DNA of 64,000 nt, from positions 124,001 through 188,000 of the forward strand of contig NZ_BATP01000005.1 of the NCBI RefSeq assembly GCF_000739615.1, read 5' to 3'. The translations under genes were made by a program, and so were the position numbers. This DNA is from Haloferula sp. BvORR071. GTDB lineage: Bacteria; Verrucomicrobiota; Verrucomicrobiia; Verrucomicrobiales; Akkermansiaceae. Shown here piece after piece: positions 51,320 to 62,507 of this stretch (position 1 is its first letter; each line of letters begins with the position of its first letter). The notes below the pieces were generated by a model. That model did not search any database and was not told the origin of the DNA. It worked only from the letters and a program-made list of their open reading frames with translations.

Positions 51320-51664
51320 ATGCCGAGGGACTTTGAAGACTTGGCCCATCCGCCGGATGGAGGCGGCAAAGTGAAGTTGGTGCTGCTCGGGATTCTGCTG
51401 CCACTGGCCGCGGCCCTCTATGCTTGGCACGGCTGGCAATCCGGCAAGGTCTGGATGCCTGGCAAAAATGGCGGAGCGATCATCAGCGGCCCGGGCGCGC
51501 AGTGGCTGGCTCTGTCCTATCTCGGCGCTGGCTTGGCCGCTCACTTCCGCTGGTTCTGGGGCCTCCTTTGGATTTACCGCGTCTTCGAGTGGGGCACCAC
51601 TGCCGCCATGATCCTGTGGATCGGCGGCTGTAGCGGGATGCTCTACCACGAGTTCTTTTACTGA
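51320..51664 (+). CDS. Hypothetical membrane protein
   Basis: The 114-aa protein has about four short hydrophobic segments: VLLGILLPLAAALYAW, WLALSYLGAGLAAHF, WFWGLLWIYRVFEWG and AMILWIGGCSGMLYH. No family is recognised. A TAGGCT -10-like box (51305-51310) ends 9 nt before the ATG. It lies between xth and the GntR operon and has no obvious partner. Confidence 0.6.
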   Translation: MPRDFEDLAHPPDGGGKVKLVLLGILLPLAAALYAWHGWQSGKVWMPGKNGGAIISGPGAQWLALSYLGAGLAAHFRWFWGLLWIYRVFEWGTTAAMILWIGGCSGMLYHEFFY

Positions 51665-51704: not shown

Positions 51705-51733
51705 CAACTGTATCAGTCATACTGATACAGTTG
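51705..51733. promoter_or_regulatory. Perfect 29-bp palindromic operator of the GntR-ABC operon
   Basis: The arms CAACTGTATCAGT (51705-51717) and ACTGATACAGTTG (51721-51733) are exact inverted copies around CAT. It lies 19 bp before the regulator ATG. A dimeric HTH repressor is the expected ligand, most simply autoregulation by the adjacent YtrA-type GntR protein. Confidence 0.8.
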
Positions 51734-51752
51734 ACACTGTGACGTGAACGCG

Positions 51753-52127
51753 ATGCTTCCTTTCCGATTCCATCTGCTCGACGGCGTGCCGGTCTCTGAC
51801 CAACTGGTCAAGGCGGTGCAGCGGGCAGTCCTCACCGGGGAGATGGGCCCGGGCGAACGCTTCCCCTCCGTGCGCGTGATCGCACAGGAGCTGAAGATCT
51901 CCCCCACCACCGCCCACAAGGCAGTGCTGGAACTGCGCGACGCCGGCTTCCTGGCCACCCGCCCGGGTGCCGGGATGGTGGTGGTGAAGCCGAGCGGTGC
52001 CACCCGTGACCAACTGCTGGCCCAACTTGCCCCGGCCTGCCGTGACCTGATCCGCCAGGCCTCCCTGCTCGGGCTGGGCCAAGACGAAACCCTTGAAGCG
52101 CTACGGCGCACATTCTCCGAACCATGA
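51753..52127 (+). CDS. GntR-family (YtrA subfamily) transcriptional regulator
   Basis: The 124-aa protein has a winged-helix GntR domain: GVPVSDQLVKAVQRAVLTGE, ERFPSVRVIAQELKISPTTAHKAVLEL, then the wing LRDAGFLATRPGAGMVV. The tail after residue 75 is too short for a ligand-binding domain, which defines the YtrA subfamily, usually found with ABC transporters induced by envelope-active antibiotics. ATG 51753 was chosen; GTG 51744 is an in-frame alternative. It overlaps the ABC ATPase gene by 4 bp (ATGA). Confidence 0.88.
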   Translation: MLPFRFHLLDGVPVSDQLVKAVQRAVLTGEMGPGERFPSVRVIAQELKISPTTAHKAVLELRDAGFLATRPGAGMVVVKPSGATRDQLLAQLAPACRDLIRQASLLGLGQDETLEALRRTFSEP

Positions 52128-53035
52128 ACTCCTTGTTAGAATTCCACGAGGTCAGCCGGAAGTACGGCCGGTCGAAGGCACTGGATGGCGCAAGCTTCCG
52201 GGTGCCCGCCGGTTCGATCACCGCCTTGCTCGGCCCGAACGGCGCGGGGAAATCCACCGCCCTCAAGATTGCCCTGAACCTGCTGCGCCCCTCCTCCGGC
52301 ACGGTGCGGGTGCTCGGCGCCGATTCGCGCAAGCTCGGCCCTGCGGAGCTGGCGCGGATCGGCTACGTCGCGGACGGCATGGAACTCCCCGAGTGGATGA
52401 CCGTGACGCAGTTCCTCGATTGGTGCCGGCCGCTCTATCCGAAGTGGGACAAGGATTTCGAGAGCGCGCTGTGCAAGCAGTTCGCCCTGCCCACCGACCG
52501 CAAGCTGCGCCACCTCTCACGCGGGCAGAAGATGAAGGCGGCGCTGGCCTCGGTGCTGTCCTACCGGCCCGAGCTGCTGGTGCTGGATGAGCCCTTCTCC
52601 GGGCTCGATCCACTGGTGCGGGATGAGTTCATCAGCGGCCTGTTAGAGCTGGCGGGCGACGAAGGTTTCTCGGTCGTGCTCTCCTCCCACGACATCGAGG
52701 AAGTCGACCGCCTGGCCGACCACGTGGTGATGATGAACCACGGCAAGGTGCTGCTCGACGAGAGCACGGAATCCCTGCTCGCCCGCCATCGCCGCGTGGA
52801 GGTGGTGCTGCCGGAGAGCTTCGGCGATCTGCCGGCGCTGCCGCCCACTTGGATCGCGGCGCAATCTTCCGGCCGGGTTCTGCGCTTCGCGGATACCGCG
52901 CATGAAGCCGCAAGCTTCGAGCAAGCGGCCGCCAAGGCCTTCCCCGGCTGCCCGCCTCCGGATGTGCAGCCTTACAGCCTGCGCGAGCTCTTCGTCACAC
53001 TGGTCCGCGCAGGCAAGGCGGATGTGGGAATCTAA
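52124..53035 (+). CDS. ABC transporter ATP-binding protein of the GntR operon
   Basis: The 303-aa protein has Walker A LLGPNGAGKSTAL (near 36), the GYVADGMELPEWMTV Q-loop region, signature LSRGQKMKAAL and Walker B LLVLDEPFSGLDP with VLSSHDIEEVDRLAD. All ATPase motifs are intact. The last 80 residues form a small extra domain. It should energise the two large membrane proteins encoded downstream, the first starting 12 bp later. Confidence 0.92.
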   Translation: MNSLLEFHEVSRKYGRSKALDGASFRVPAGSITALLGPNGAGKSTALKIALNLLRPSSGTVRVLGADSRKLGPAELARIGYVADGMELPEWMTVTQFLDWCRPLYPKWDKDFESALCKQFALPTDRKLRHLSRGQKMKAALASVLSYRPELLVLDEPFSGLDPLVRDEFISGLLELAGDEGFSVVLSSHDIEEVDRLADHVVMMNHGKVLLDESTESLLARHRRVEVVLPESFGDLPALPPTWIAAQSSGRVLRFADTAHEAASFEQAAAKAFPGCPPPDVQPYSLRELFVTLVRAGKADVGI

Positions 53036-53047
53036 CAAGATCGTATC

Positions 53048-55627
53048 ATGAACTTCTGCATCGTGACCCACTTGTTGAAGACCGACCTGCGGCGCCTGCG
53101 CTGGCTGCTGCTCGTCTGCTGGGGCCTTCTGTTGCTGGCTTCCTGGCCCGCCTTGAGCTTCTCCGCGGCGCACTTCGACATGCCAATCTCGCCACGGGAC
53201 CTGCTCCATGGCGGCAGCGGGGACAGCTCCATCACCGGGCTCCTGGAGAAACAAGGATTCTTCTCCACGGGGACGATCTGGGCATTCATCACCTTGGACC
53301 GGGTGGCCAGCTACTCGGCGCTGATCTTGGCCGGTTGTCTGGGCTTCCACAGTCGCGTGTGGTCGGAGGGCCGGCCGGTGCGGCGGCGGGAGAGCTTGCT
53401 GGCCAAGACTTGCGGCCTCCTGTTCTTTCTGATCCTGCCGCTCGCCCTTCTGGCCACCACGGTAGGGCTCCTGCAGGGCGTGCCCTGGACCCAGGCGCTG
53501 GCCATGGGGGCCACCCGTGCAAGCGTGAACCTGCCCGCCCTGCTTGGCGTCATGCTGTTCGGTGCCTACTGCGGGCGCTGGTGGACGTGGCTGGCTGGTA
53601 TGTTCGGCATGTTCCTCATCTGCACGACACTCCCCATCGTCTTGCGGCTCAGCGCGGGGCCGGACTGGTTCTGGAGCCCGCTCCAGGAGATCCCCGCTTA
53701 TGGGCTCCTCTATAGCCTCAAACCGTGGATCGCGGTGGCCGTGCTGACGATCCTGCTGCTGTGGGTGCGGAGGGACCTGCCCGGCTCGCGGAAGCTGGGC
53801 ATCGCCCTGGCCGCTATCCTCGCTGCCAGCCAGCTCGCACTGTTCTTCCTACCTTCCAGCCCATACCCCGGCTACTACGGATTCAGTAATCCTCTCTCCC
53901 AATTGCCGGATTGGAGCAGGCAGCTACATCCGGAATTGGATGGCAAGAGCCTCGAAGCCTCAATTGACCAGGGTGTAAAGGGCCGCGGTAGTTATAGCAA
54001 CTCGCTCCACAGCTTCAACGGCGAGTCTTACATGAACCTGCTGCTGCCCTGGAAAACGGGCGGCTTGCCGGCAGGCAGCTTTATCAACTGGAAGCCGGTG
54101 GGAAGCTCCGCCCTCAAGGTGGGTGACACGGTGGTAAGCCGCACCCCGGGCAATCGCGTGGCTGAGTTCTACCAAGGCGATACCGACGAGGCCGCCCTGA
54201 ACGCCATGCTAAAGCCGGAGGGCGGCAAGCTCCGCTGGGACAGCCCCTCAAATCTGGTGGATAGCCGCCTTCTGGCAGAGGTTCTGACTCCAGTCGGAGA
54301 CGGCATGGTTCCGGAGGCGAGCCTGGAGATGAATCTTGAGGGGACCGTCGTCCAGCTTGAGAAGATCGTCGACGTGCCTTTCGGCAGCCCCGTGACCGTG
54401 AAGGCAGATGGTGTGGAGCTCCACATCCGGCGTCTGGATATCGGGGCCTATATGCCCGTGGCCGACATTTGCTATGTCGCGCCCGGCGGTCAGAACGCGT
54501 GGGACTTGGCCATGCGCACGAATGAGTGGATCCCGGTCATCTACTTCCCCAAGCAGGCGATGGCGCGCCTGCCATGGTCCGCGCAATTCAGCACCATGCC
54601 CCTGACACCAGGTCTCACAGCCTTCCGGCAACTGTATCACACCGGGCAGACCTCGAGTAAAGGCCCCGATCTCAAAGGCTACGATGAAGCGCGCTTCATC
54701 CTGGTGAAGCGGCGTTATGTCGCCACGGCGAAGGCGGAGGTCCGCACGCCAACCTTGCCCTTCGTCCTGGAGGCAAACCACTACAACGATCCCGAAGCCC
54801 GCGACAGCTCCGATCCGCCGGCCTTCGACCGCCGCCCGGATCCTGCGACCACGACTGCCGCTCAATTCGAGCAATGGATGAAGGTGTCCTATTCGGACTT
54901 CGATCGAGATTGGGGCGGCAGAAACATCGCCGATTACGTGCCGCGCTACCTGGACCGTATTTTGCACCGCCGTTCTGGTGTCAGTCCGCCGTCCACTCCG
55001 GAAGGCCGTGCCATCGAACTCGCCTGCCCGGAAAGCCGCAAGCGCGAGGTCATCGACGCCCTGCTTGCGACGAATCGACGCAATGACGCGAACTGGATTC
55101 CCGATGTCCTGATCCGCCGCGGCTGGGTGACTGAGGCGAAGCCGGAGATCCTCCAAATGCTGGCCGATGGGCAAATGGAGCAAAACCTCTTCGCCCAACT
55201 CATGGTCGCAAATCTGGAGGATCCCCAGACCTATCCCGCGCTGTTGGGGGAGAGACAGTGGTTTGAGACTTATGAGAAGCTCCGCCTCTTGCCTGGCATC
55301 GAGCCGCTCCTGACCGAGACCGTGGCGAAGGCCTACCGCGAAGTGGACGAAGTGTATGCGGGCCGGCCGGCTGACGAGAGGTTCTACGGCTACCTTACCC
55401 CGGCGGCCCACGGCATGTCCGAGGCACTCGACCATCTGATCCAGGAGTGGGAGAAGATCGAACCAATCTACCGCCGGACCCGTGCCGATTACTTGCGCCA
55501 AGTGATCCAGCTTCCGGGCGAGCCGGACGACTGGCGATCCGTTCTGGGAGCTCTAACCGGCCGGAAGGCCGCTGACTTCCGCTATGATCCGCTGGCCCGC
55601 ATGTGGATCCCCATCACCGCTCCCTGA
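53048..55627 (+). CDS. Very large ABC-2-like membrane protein A
   Basis: The 859-aa protein has about seven N-terminal helices within the first 280 residues (LLLVCWGLLLLASWPAL, then VASYSALILAGCLGF and further segments), starting with HLLKTDLRRLRW typical of ABC-2 permeases. A soluble part of about 570 residues follows, with strand- and repeat-rich sequence, which ordinary permeases lack. It ends with ADFRYDPLARMWIP. The end of the second membrane protein is similar (MKYDAATKTWSG). It is expected to be the permease of the YtrA-type operon. Function of the long part unknown. Confidence 0.7.
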   Translation: MNFCIVTHLLKTDLRRLRWLLLVCWGLLLLASWPALSFSAAHFDMPISPRDLLHGGSGDSSITGLLEKQGFFSTGTIWAFITLDRVASYSALILAGCLGFHSRVWSEGRPVRRRESLLAKTCGLLFFLILPLALLATTVGLLQGVPWTQALAMGATRASVNLPALLGVMLFGAYCGRWWTWLAGMFGMFLICTTLPIVLRLSAGPDWFWSPLQEIPAYGLLYSLKPWIAVAVLTILLLWVRRDLPGSRKLGIALAAILAASQLALFFLPSSPYPGYYGFSNPLSQLPDWSRQLHPELDGKSLEASIDQGVKGRGSYSNSLHSFNGESYMNLLLPWKTGGLPAGSFINWKPVGSSALKVGDTVVSRTPGNRVAEFYQGDTDEAALNAMLKPEGGKLRWDSPSNLVDSRLLAEVLTPVGDGMVPEASLEMNLEGTVVQLEKIVDVPFGSPVTVKADGVELHIRRLDIGAYMPVADICYVAPGGQNAWDLAMRTNEWIPVIYFPKQAMARLPWSAQFSTMPLTPGLTAFRQLYHTGQTSSKGPDLKGYDEARFILVKRRYVATAKAEVRTPTLPFVLEANHYNDPEARDSSDPPAFDRRPDPATTTAAQFEQWMKVSYSDFDRDWGGRNIADYVPRYLDRILHRRSGVSPPSTPEGRAIELACPESRKREVIDALLATNRRNDANWIPDVLIRRGWVTEAKPEILQMLADGQMEQNLFAQLMVANLEDPQTYPALLGERQWFETYEKLRLLPGIEPLLTETVAKAYREVDEVYAGRPADERFYGYLTPAAHGMSEALDHLIQEWEKIEPIYRRTRADYLRQVIQLPGEPDDWRSVLGALTGRKAADFRYDPLARMWIPITAP

Positions 55628-55658
55628 GCGCCGCGACTCAAAGCCCACACCTCATGCC

Positions 55659-57581
55659 ATGCCTGTCATGAAATCCTTCCTTCACGCCTTTCGCCTTACC
55701 TTTCGCCGCTTCCGCTGGGAGATCCTCGCGTTCTGGATTCTCAGCGCCTGGCTGGTGACCATGGCCATCACTCACCCGCCCTCTCTCGACATCCGGGCAA
55801 GAGGGCCGAGGATGATACCGCCGGACTTCGCCAAACTGGAAGTCCTCGCCGCTTGCTGGCTCGTCATCCGCCTCGCGCTGTCCGAGCCGGTCTTCCTGAC
55901 CCAAGGCGGCTGGCGCACCCGGCCGATCTCGCGTTGGGTGGCTTGGGGAGCCTCCTTTGCGGTACTGGCCTTGGCCCTCTTGCCCGCGCTGCTGGTACGG
56001 GTGATTGCTCTCGTGGACTTGATCAAACCCGACGCCGCGGTGTGGAAGGATCTGTTCCAAGGCACCTTCCTCTGGGGCGCGCTGATCCCCGCGCTGGCAG
56101 CGATCGTGGTGCGACTGGCGGGCGGCTTGCTCTGGGGCCGTCAACCGGGACCCGCACGCCGCGTCGTCTGCGGCATCTTCGCAGTACTGGCCGTAGCGGC
56201 GTGGTTTCACCCGGCCACGGCGCGCTTCCTCTATGTCGGCGGAGATCGCGGCATCAGCTGGAGTGGCGGTGGAGGCATCATGAACTATTCCCCGGTGCTG
56301 CAGGGCTTGCGGGAGAAGCTACCCGCCGACGCGAAATTCCAAGGCTATGCCCATATGGGCTTGTGGGGGAAGGAGTCGGATGTTCCGCGTATGCGTGAGC
56401 TCTTCCGCGTGGCACCGGTCGTCGGCACCGTGATCCGGAGCAATGGCTTGGCGCTTGAGATCCTCCGGGTCGAACCGAAGGGCAAGGAAGTGGCAATCGA
56501 TATCGAATTCACCGTGGCGCAAAGCGATCGCCGCAATCCAAAGGTTCCCATCCTGCTCCTGCACTTCCCCGGGAACAACTACTCTCTCCGCCAGAAGGTC
56601 GCTTCCGCCCAAGGCTCCTACTCGCTCTATGCCCTGCCCCTGATGAAGGCGCGCGCCGACGGCAGCTACGAGTCGCCTGAAGATTCTCCGGATTGGGACA
56701 AGCTCCTGCCGCAACTGGAACTGGTCGCCTTCAGCCCGGACGAGTCCCTGCCACGCATGCCCTACAAGATCAGTGAAGAGGATATCAAGGCCTCGAAACC
56801 CAGCTCCCCGCAGCGCCCGAAGAAGGAACTGCCGCCGGTGCAACCAGGTCTCGCCGGAGCGGTGACCGAGGTCTTCAACGGCCTGGATCACGAAGCCAGG
56901 CGGACGGGGCCGGAGCCCTTCGAGGAGAAGGCCAAGGCCATTCCCCGCGAGGGCATGCCGCATGTGCTGGCGCGCCACCCATGGTCGGATGCCTCCTGGG
57001 AATTCTTCGTCCAACCTTTCCTCCTCAAGCACGCGGACGAATCCGACAAGCCGGTCCTGTTGGAGCGCATGACAACCGAGCCGCGGCTTGGGGAGATCTT
57101 CATCGCCAAGTGCTGGAAGGCGGAGGCACTGCCCCTGCTCAAGCGCTTCGCCCATGACCGGCTGCCACTGGATACCGTATCCGTGACTGCCTTGTTAGAA
57201 GAGAAGGATCCGGCGCTGGCAGCGGATCTCGCGGCGCTGGCGCAGTGGCTGCCGGGCGACCTGAGCCCTCTCGAAGCGCGCCTGCGCGAGTATCCCGGCT
57301 TGGATTGGCCGGCCTTTGTCCGGCAAGGCTGGAAACTCCGGAAGTATGCCTATCGCATGAAAGTGGAGATCCCACCCTTCGACCTGTGGGCTGCGCAGGT
57401 GGGTGATGCCACCGCCTTCCAGTACGTCGCGGAGAAGGCGGCGCGCCATGAGAGCGGCTACGAGGAACGCCTGCGGAGCCTAGTCGCGGGACAGCCGCAG
57501 GATGCCGTCGCCTACGTGCGGACGAACCTCGGGAAGATGAAGTACGACGCAGCGACGAAGACTTGGAGCGGCGTGCCATAA
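55659..57581 (+). CDS. Very large ABC-2-like membrane protein B
   Basis: The 640-aa protein starts MPVMKSFLHAFRLTFRRFRW, like its neighbour. About four helices follow (EILAFWILSAWLVTMAI, then FAVLALALLPALLVRVIALV and others) and a long soluble part with Lys/Pro-rich stretches. The C-terminus MKYDAATKTWSG resembles the end of protein A, suggesting the two are paralogues. Start ATG 55659 was chosen over the longer frame at 55584, which overlaps gene A. Together with the ATPase it probably forms a heteromeric ABC complex. Confidence 0.65.
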   Translation: MPVMKSFLHAFRLTFRRFRWEILAFWILSAWLVTMAITHPPSLDIRARGPRMIPPDFAKLEVLAACWLVIRLALSEPVFLTQGGWRTRPISRWVAWGASFAVLALALLPALLVRVIALVDLIKPDAAVWKDLFQGTFLWGALIPALAAIVVRLAGGLLWGRQPGPARRVVCGIFAVLAVAAWFHPATARFLYVGGDRGISWSGGGGIMNYSPVLQGLREKLPADAKFQGYAHMGLWGKESDVPRMRELFRVAPVVGTVIRSNGLALEILRVEPKGKEVAIDIEFTVAQSDRRNPKVPILLLHFPGNNYSLRQKVASAQGSYSLYALPLMKARADGSYESPEDSPDWDKLLPQLELVAFSPDESLPRMPYKISEEDIKASKPSSPQRPKKELPPVQPGLAGAVTEVFNGLDHEARRTGPEPFEEKAKAIPREGMPHVLARHPWSDASWEFFVQPFLLKHADESDKPVLLERMTTEPRLGEIFIAKCWKAEALPLLKRFAHDRLPLDTVSVTALLEEKDPALAADLAALAQWLPGDLSPLEARLREYPGLDWPAFVRQGWKLRKYAYRMKVEIPPFDLWAAQVGDATAFQYVAEKAARHESGYEERLRSLVAGQPQDAVAYVRTNLGKMKYDAATKTWSGVP

Positions 57582-61724: not shown

Positions 61725-62507
61725 TTACCAGCCCTCTACTCCCTGCACCAATCGTGGTTCCTTCTTCGTATCCAGCCAGCGCAGGACTTCGCCCAGTTGA
61801 TCCTCGGCCATCGCCGTGCAGCCGGAAGTCGGCACCCCCGCGCCCTTCCAGATGTGCAGGAAGATGCAGGACCCGGAACCGGCCATATTGTTAGGGTTGT
61901 GCGCCACGAAGGCCCCGCGGCGATACAGGCCCTCCTCCCTGACCATCGTCTCCGCGCTCTTCCAATCGCGGCTCACCGTGGTGGAGTCCACCACTTGGTT
62001 GTAGAACTTCGATTGCCCGTCATCGACGCCAAAGCAATCCGCCGTGAGCGGCCGGTAACTCAGCCGCAAGTCTCCAGCTGCAGGAGCATAGCCGAAGGCG
62101 AAAGGAATGCGGAATACTCCCGCCGGCGCGCAGCCATCGCCCTCCTTCTTGATCCGGAAACCAGCTGGTGGCTCGCCGCGATGCTCGCCGATTCCCCAAG
62201 CCAGCCCATTGCGCCCCACCGCCACCGGGATTGGGCCCTTCACCGTTTGCCAAGCAGCCTCTCCTCCACTCTTCCGCTCCATCAGCCACAGCTTGCCGGC
62301 AGGAGCCTTCTCCTCCGCCGTCAGCACCAGCAGCACCTGGCGGCAAGAGTCGGGCAATTCATGTGCCAGCCGCTGCGGCATCTTCACGGATGCTAAGCCT
62401 GCCGTGTCTTGCCCGTGACTCAGCTCGATCCCCCGCGCCCCCAGCAGGACCGCGAGCGACCCAAGCATCCACCAAGCGCGCTTCCGGGACATCATCGTGG
62501 AAGCCAT
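61725..62507 (-). CDS. L,D-transpeptidase (YkuD-type) with signal anchor
   Basis: The 260-aa protein has an N-terminal hydrophobic segment (WWMLGSLAVLLGARG). The C-terminal catalytic domain has FLHIWKGAGVPTSGCTAM, matching H-x(n)-S-x-G-C with the catalytic Cys near 231, and AGVFRIPFAFGYAP as the strand before. It resembles YafK-type proteins that cross-link or trim peptidoglycan-linked peptides. ATG 62507 or 62495 (MMSRKR) can start it. It is divergent from the gene at 62748. Confidence 0.82.
   Translation of the reverse strand: MASTMMSRKRAWWMLGSLAVLLGARGIELSHGQDTAGLASVKMPQRLAHELPDSCRQVLLVLTAEEKAPAGKLWLMERKSGGEAAWQTVKGPIPVAVGRNGLAWGIGEHRGEPPAGFRIKKEGDGCAPAGVFRIPFAFGYAPAAGDLRLSYRPLTADCFGVDDGQSKFYNQVVDSTTVSRDWKSAETMVREEGLYRRGAFVAHNPNNMAGSGSCIFLHIWKGAGVPTSGCTAMAEDQLGEVLRWLDTKKEPRLVQGVEGW

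Follow-up and report, generated by a model that had tools for sequence, protein, structure and literature searches.

The operon studied here raises the question of why two adjacent membrane proteins encoded beside a single ABC ATPase are so large, and what their additional regions do. It lies in the window, the whole 64,000-nucleotide stretch of contig NZ_BATP01000005.1 of Haloferula sp. BvORR071 that was analysed. A sequence-only reading had described the two proteins, designated here as P1 and P2, as apparently paralogous ABC-2-like permeases with outsized soluble regions, and both open reading frames were located where that reading had placed them (Table 1). The second frame spans 55584-57581 (665 aa); the likelier start of P2 within it is 55668, which gives 637 aa and matches the starts of its relatives.

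On the forward strand, the order is an operator palindrome, gntR, the ABC ATPase gene, P1 and P2. The gntR and ATPase genes overlap by 4 bases, and gaps of 12 and 40 bases precede P1 and P2, respectively. Pfam matches to GntR and ABC_tran confirmed that this is a YtrA-type operon with its ATPase, as had been proposed. The GntR match (39.4 bits, cut-off 27) covers residues 19-80 of 127, the N-terminal winged helix, and the 47 residues behind it agree with the short C-terminal part of approximately 50 aa described for the YtrA subfamily (PMC6746942). The gene position is also that of the subfamily, with gntR as the first gene and the 29-nt palindrome just upstream. The core motifs of the ATPase (Walker A, the LSRGQ signature, Walker B and SSHD) are intact, and a separate ATPase of this kind is a feature of type V (ABC-2) exporters. 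Its best NCBIfam match, PmtA (NF047565), reached 157.8 bits against a cut-off of 350, which is short of membership; its close PDB sequence matches include ABCA1 and ABCA7. A scan for promoters and terminators detected no promoter; its single terminator-like site lies on the opposite strand, a yield below that of shuffled sequences.

Table 1 Features of the operon in window coordinates.
Feature	Position	Strand	Basis or remark
Operator-like palindrome	51705..51733		13-nt perfect arms, 3-nt spacer
YtrA-type GntR regulator gene	51744..52127	+	Pfam GntR; alternative ATG start 51753
ABC ATPase gene, extension of ~75 aa past the core	52124..53035	+	Pfam ABC_tran, 85.1 bits
P1, large permease, 859 aa	53048..55627	+	ORF list
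P1 membrane part, 7 predicted segments, residues 20-268	53105..53851	+	Family-averaged hydropathy
P1 C-terminal helical domain, residues 595-854	54830..55609	+	Conserved domain alignment
P2, large permease, ~637 aa	55668..57581	+	Start where relatives begin
P2 membrane part, 5 predicted segments	55722..56219	+	Family-averaged hydropathy
P2 beta-sandwich part, residues 223-360	56334..56747	+	AlphaFold2 model, fold comparison
P2 C-terminal helical domain	56856..57569	+	Conserved domain alignment, AlphaFold2 model

The palindrome is the sole site of its kind in the 7.8 Mb of its own genome when up to 3 mismatches are allowed. Its core is identical upstream of the corresponding operon of genome G010, where the bases further upstream diverge. 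Among 25 related operons with readable upstream regions, 17 have perfect arms of at least 8 bases within 60 bases of the start (raw count), and the remaining eight have imperfect palindromes (L018, L037, L038, L039, L045, L076, L077 and L120). Palindromes with perfect arms are often of the form GTGTTACA-N7-TGTAACAC. Operators of the YtrA type are described as long palindromes, such as GGTG-N16-CACC in Xanthomonas citri, and the regulon of the archaeal YtrASa as comprising two targets (PMC6746942).

The outsized soluble regions are real by family-averaged hydropathy: membrane segments are absent past residue 300 of P1 and residue 230 of P2, which leaves soluble remainders of approximately 590 and 450 aa behind the last segment. 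With the N-terminus placed inside, the inner loops of P1 carry 3.6, 4.6, 0.4 and 3.2 basic residues and its outer loops 3.0 (over 41 residues), 0.6 and 1.4. The corresponding values for P2 are 4.2, 3.8 and 3.4 for the inner loops and 1.0 and 1.4 for the outer loops. The helix counts of 7 and 5 come from hydropathy alone, and such counts can err by one helix. Because both counts are odd and the loops follow the positive-inside pattern, the part behind the last helix is predicted to lie outside the cytoplasm. Together with the exported stand-alone relatives described below, this makes the soluble regions most likely extracytoplasmic, as had been suggested; the placement is supported rather than proven.

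Type V transporters are described as having 6 + 6 membrane helices (PMC8386196), whereas hydropathy gave 7 and 5 here. The first fold matches of the P1 membrane part, among those listed, are type V proteins, namely NosY (Z 8.2, rmsd 5.3 over 201 residues), ABCA7 (8.0), ABCG25 (7.3) and CcmB (7.2), in a comparison that rests on a poor model and in a range, near Z 8, that is common among helical models. Close below them in the list come one type VII chain and numerous type IV chains, with Z of 5 to 7. The matches listed for the P2 membrane part include designed helical proteins (Z 7.7 and 7.2), YrbE of Mce1 (7.0), LptG (6.1) and LptF (5.6); among them, it resembles YrbE and LptG/LptF rather than ABC-2 chains. 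Pfam ABC-2 profiles applied to 44 relatives gave ABC2_membrane_2 in two and ABC2_membrane_4 in one, all weak. An RP-type pattern in the loop between helices 2 and 3 matched 20 of the 44 relatives and was hence set aside. A type VII (MacB-like) assignment was rejected: the 7 and 5 predicted helices do not fit a four-helix FtsX-like membrane part, and all of them lie ahead of the soluble region.

The paralogy of P1 and P2 was examined by profile comparison, for the separate parts with one side reversed as a control. The membrane parts matched with 96.4% and E 1.1e-9 by hhalign (reversed, E 0.74), and the C-terminal domains of approximately 250 aa with E 2.4e-10 (reversed, 0.036). The whole-length comparison gave 96.6% and E 6.9e-10, with an alignment running through the beta-rich middles; the middles by themselves were not significantly related (1.3%, E 0.039; reversed, 0.31). 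A profile of 15 C-terminal domains from which the P2 type was excluded recovered all eight P2-type domains, among them that of the window's P2 (E 1.9e-11), and 5000 shuffled sequences gave no match at E ≤ 0.1. The two proteins are thus real paralogues in the membrane part and the C-terminal domain. The relation proposed for their soluble regions holds for the C-terminal domains but not for the beta-rich middles, and the resemblance noticed between their ends, FRYDPLARMW and MKYDAATKTW, is above chance and is the conserved close of the domain. In a tree of 36 domains, five P1 sequences (97/98) separate from five P2 sequences (98/98). The P1 side (94/93) includes the first-position permeases of G286, G333 and G037 and a permease from contig 37 of the window's genome, while the P2 side (97/96) includes the second-position permeases of G286 and G333; several branches of this tree are very long and the outer placements are unsure. 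The permease pair of G275 looks like a younger duplication.

The C-terminal domain is marked by a conserved GW, by a PG and by a terminus similar to YDPxxxxW, which forms a small beta hairpin in the P2 model. Searches of Pfam and NCBIfam with P1 and P2 gave no significant match, and neither did the C-terminal domain against Pfam, NCBIfam or PDB sequences, in keeping with the suggestion that the soluble parts do not belong to a known domain. AlphaFold2 (four sequences) predicted the C-terminal domain of P2 well, as a helical repeat, within a model of mean pLDDT 66, while the P1 model was poor (52.8). The repeats may be HEAT-like: HEAT_2 matched three of 23 members, with a best E of 0.12, and chains of AP2, PP2A B56 and symplekin were matched in fold with Z of 5 to 7 at an rmsd of 6 to 9 Å. 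Foldseek with the P2 model returned nothing at E ≤ 0.001. The beta part of P2 resembles small bacterial beta-sandwich proteins (3fbq, Z 6.3; YxkC, 5.9; SadB, 5.2; YjhA, 4.9), some of which we take to be exported lipoproteins.

The same four-gene operon is present in five of 18 genomes of the genus, and GntR relatives of the window type in 10 of the 18. Its genomic neighbours are identical in the window and G010, presumably a ribosome recycling factor gene on one side and an exonuclease III-like gene on the other, and different in G006, G008 and G013. These last three genus genomes also have both the ATPase gene and the GntR gene. A 114-aa membrane-like protein (51320-51664, +), for which a family search gave no match, is encoded immediately upstream of the operator; in G010 a similar 122-aa frame occupies the same place (L016 7807-8175). 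Elsewhere in the window, a putative L,D-transpeptidase (61725-62507, -) matched YkuD with E 2.3e-4 and 22.2 bits, slightly below the cut-off of 23.4.

The C-terminal domain was found in at least 28 of 387 sampled genomes of the phylum; the searches scored the first 3 or 6 candidates per genome, so that the counts are lower bounds. The search that scored 6 candidates overlooked a third, weak copy in the genome of the window, which a further search recovered. The 28 genomes comprise 11 with permease fusions (G000, G010, G286, G037, G132, G070, G078, G122, G202, G275 and G333), 13 with stand-alone proteins (G064, G104, G148, G193, G216, G282, G313, G348, G357, G364, G366, G374 and G406) and four weak or odd cases (G061, G208, G403 and G413). 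Each of the 11 fusion genomes has, next to the permease, an ATPase gene like that of the window, and a GntR gene was identified in 10 of them, the exception being G202. Plasmid records searched with P1 and with one stand-alone relative gave no match.

The stand-alone proteins bear on the location of the domain. With starts taken as the first in frame, 15 of 16 have a hydrophobic, export-type N-terminus, and the sixteenth, L079, has an uncertain start; 12 of the 16 carry a lipobox pattern, two of them doubtfully. This count omits fragments and weak or very long matches (the second frame of L084, and L092, L093, L094 and L095). The exported proteins are approximately 330-375 aa long (L041 5631-7699; L080 to L091), and in many of them a short heptad-like stretch lies between the signal or lipobox and the domain. 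They occur in tandem in G366 and G348.

The fused forms vary. In the 1282-aa permease of G275 (L042 6125-9973) the domain precedes BspA-type leucine-rich repeats (Pfam, E 5.3e-56), and the 1498-aa permease of G132 (L045 3569-8065) shows several partial, repeated domain matches, a pattern that would fit an elongated helical array. On contig 3 of G286 (L038 2407-4895) the equivalent of P1 is a 7-helix frame of 338 aa followed, 24 bases on and in another frame, by a soluble frame of 482 aa, which may reflect a frameshift or a true split; the apparent split was hence not counted as evidence. Versions with a single permease or with multiple permeases were found elsewhere in the phylum. A profile search of the genome contigs with the P2 alignment gave three loci. 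The window's own genome has two more GntR-ATPase operons. On contig 37 (L105 7138-10927) the permeases are 834 aa, with a weak copy of the domain (E 8e-8), and 566 aa long; on contig 10 (L114 3372-8129) they measure 556 and 591 aa and lack the C-terminal domain. The layout occurs in scattered members of the phylum, and the window's pair does not stand isolated: it is one form within a broader set of large-permease YtrA-type systems.

Among known systems, YtrA with YtrB2CD of Bacillus subtilis shares the GntR regulator, a single ATPase and two different permeases. A survey assigns YtrB2CD to type V and notes a regulatory domain on its ATPase (PMC11466899), whereas here both permeases, with 7 and 5 predicted helices, end in large soluble regions with helical repeats. 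For type V exporters that lack hybrid character, the same survey reports no extracellular domains of this kind. The type V/VI hybrids of B. subtilis (NatAB, YhaQP, LnrLMN and YhcHI) combine a type V-like membrane part with a large extracellular domain, described as a five-stranded sheet with helices or as a two-helix coiled coil (PMC11466899); P1 and P2 have a far larger soluble part, placed after the last helix and terminating in helical repeats. The link to NosDFY(L) is its ABC-2 type permease NosY, which gave the P1 membrane part, on a low-confidence model, its highest-scoring fold match. The NosY transporter works with the periplasmic protein NosD, which is separate, while the periplasmic part considered here would be fused to the permease, has helical repeats and stands outside a denitrification context. 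PmtRABCD of staphylococci, which answers to amphipathic peptides, and ClnRAB of C. difficile share the order of a GntR regulator followed by ATPase and permease; the large soluble permease parts set the present system apart, a contrast drawn from the descriptions of those systems only. ClnRAB is reported to answer to LL-37 (PMC6117091). A literature search, conducted largely without subscription journals, found no description of such a system.

These results incline us slightly towards a four-gene, locally autoregulated transporter of the type V-like (ABC-2) kind with built-in extracytoplasmic modules on both permeases. The GntR protein would bind the palindrome before its own gene and be released by a signal. 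Because the operon has one ATPase gene and two permease genes from two old lineages, two copies of the ATPase would pair with P1 and P2 as two different halves in an ATPase2-P1-P2 heteromer. The beta-rich part and the helical-repeat domain would sit over the membrane part, outside the cytoplasm, and by analogy would bind a periplasmic or membrane-embedded target and be moved by the ATP cycle. The machine may thereby expel or extract envelope-damaging compounds, or push mechanically on a partner. Its role is probably envelope defence by analogy with YtrA-type systems, since the literature ties these to envelope stress: wall antibiotics are described as inducers of the YtrA operons of B. subtilis (PMC7828314), and cells that overproduce the transporter as having a thicker wall (PMC8060467, PMC7828314). 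The operon layout, the tight gene spacing, the relatedness of P1 and P2, the odd helix counts with positive-inside loops, the export-type N-termini of the stand-alone relatives, the BspA repeats in G275, the type V chains at the head of the P1 fold list and the unique palindrome speak for this explanation. The helix counts of 7 and 5 rather than 6 + 6, the poor P1 model with type IV chains close behind in its list, the likeness of P2 to YrbE and LptG, and the 482-aa frame of G286, which has no export signal at its first start but may be the rear portion of a frame-shifted P1-type gene, speak against it.

It is possible, though clearly less probable, that nothing crosses the membrane and that the ATP cycle serves only to shift the periplasmic domains, which would act on a partner; wall enzymes, lipoproteins and stand-alone copies of the domain are conceivable partners. 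Both halves carry large extracytoplasmic parts, free lipoprotein copies of the domain exist, type VII systems provide a precedent, and the P1 fold resembles NosY with its partner NosD; however, the operons read contain no recurrent partner gene, and export is what ABC-2 proteins mostly do. More doubtful is a house-keeping role, in which a lipid, glycan or peptide made by the cell is exported and the periplasmic domains pass the cargo on. The lipid transporters ABCA1 and ABCA7 among the close ATPase matches are consistent with this, but the presence in five of 18 genus genomes is patchy and biosynthesis genes were not found beside the operon. Cytoplasmic soluble regions that regulate the ATPase are very improbable: ABC systems with large cytoplasmic additions exist, hydropathy may miscount by one helix, and the soluble frame of G286, perhaps part of a frame-shifted gene, shows no evident signal, but odd counts with positive-inside loops in both proteins and the export-type N-termini of the stand-alone homologues argue against them.

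The chances appear even that P1 and P2 represent a distinct ABC-2-like branch with odd helix counts and fused extracytoplasmic helical-repeat domains at the C-terminus, in which a domain family that also occurs as free exported lipoproteins joined both halves before the permease lineages split. The C-terminal domain constitutes an unnamed family of approximately 250 aa, for which neither Pfam and NCBIfam nor the PDB sequences gave a significant match. The ABC layout of the operon would be one whose permeases carry large terminal extracytoplasmic modules of their own. The occurrence of fused and free exported copies of the domain in one phylum may offer a handle on how an ABC-2-like machine transmits force or cargo to the periplasm.
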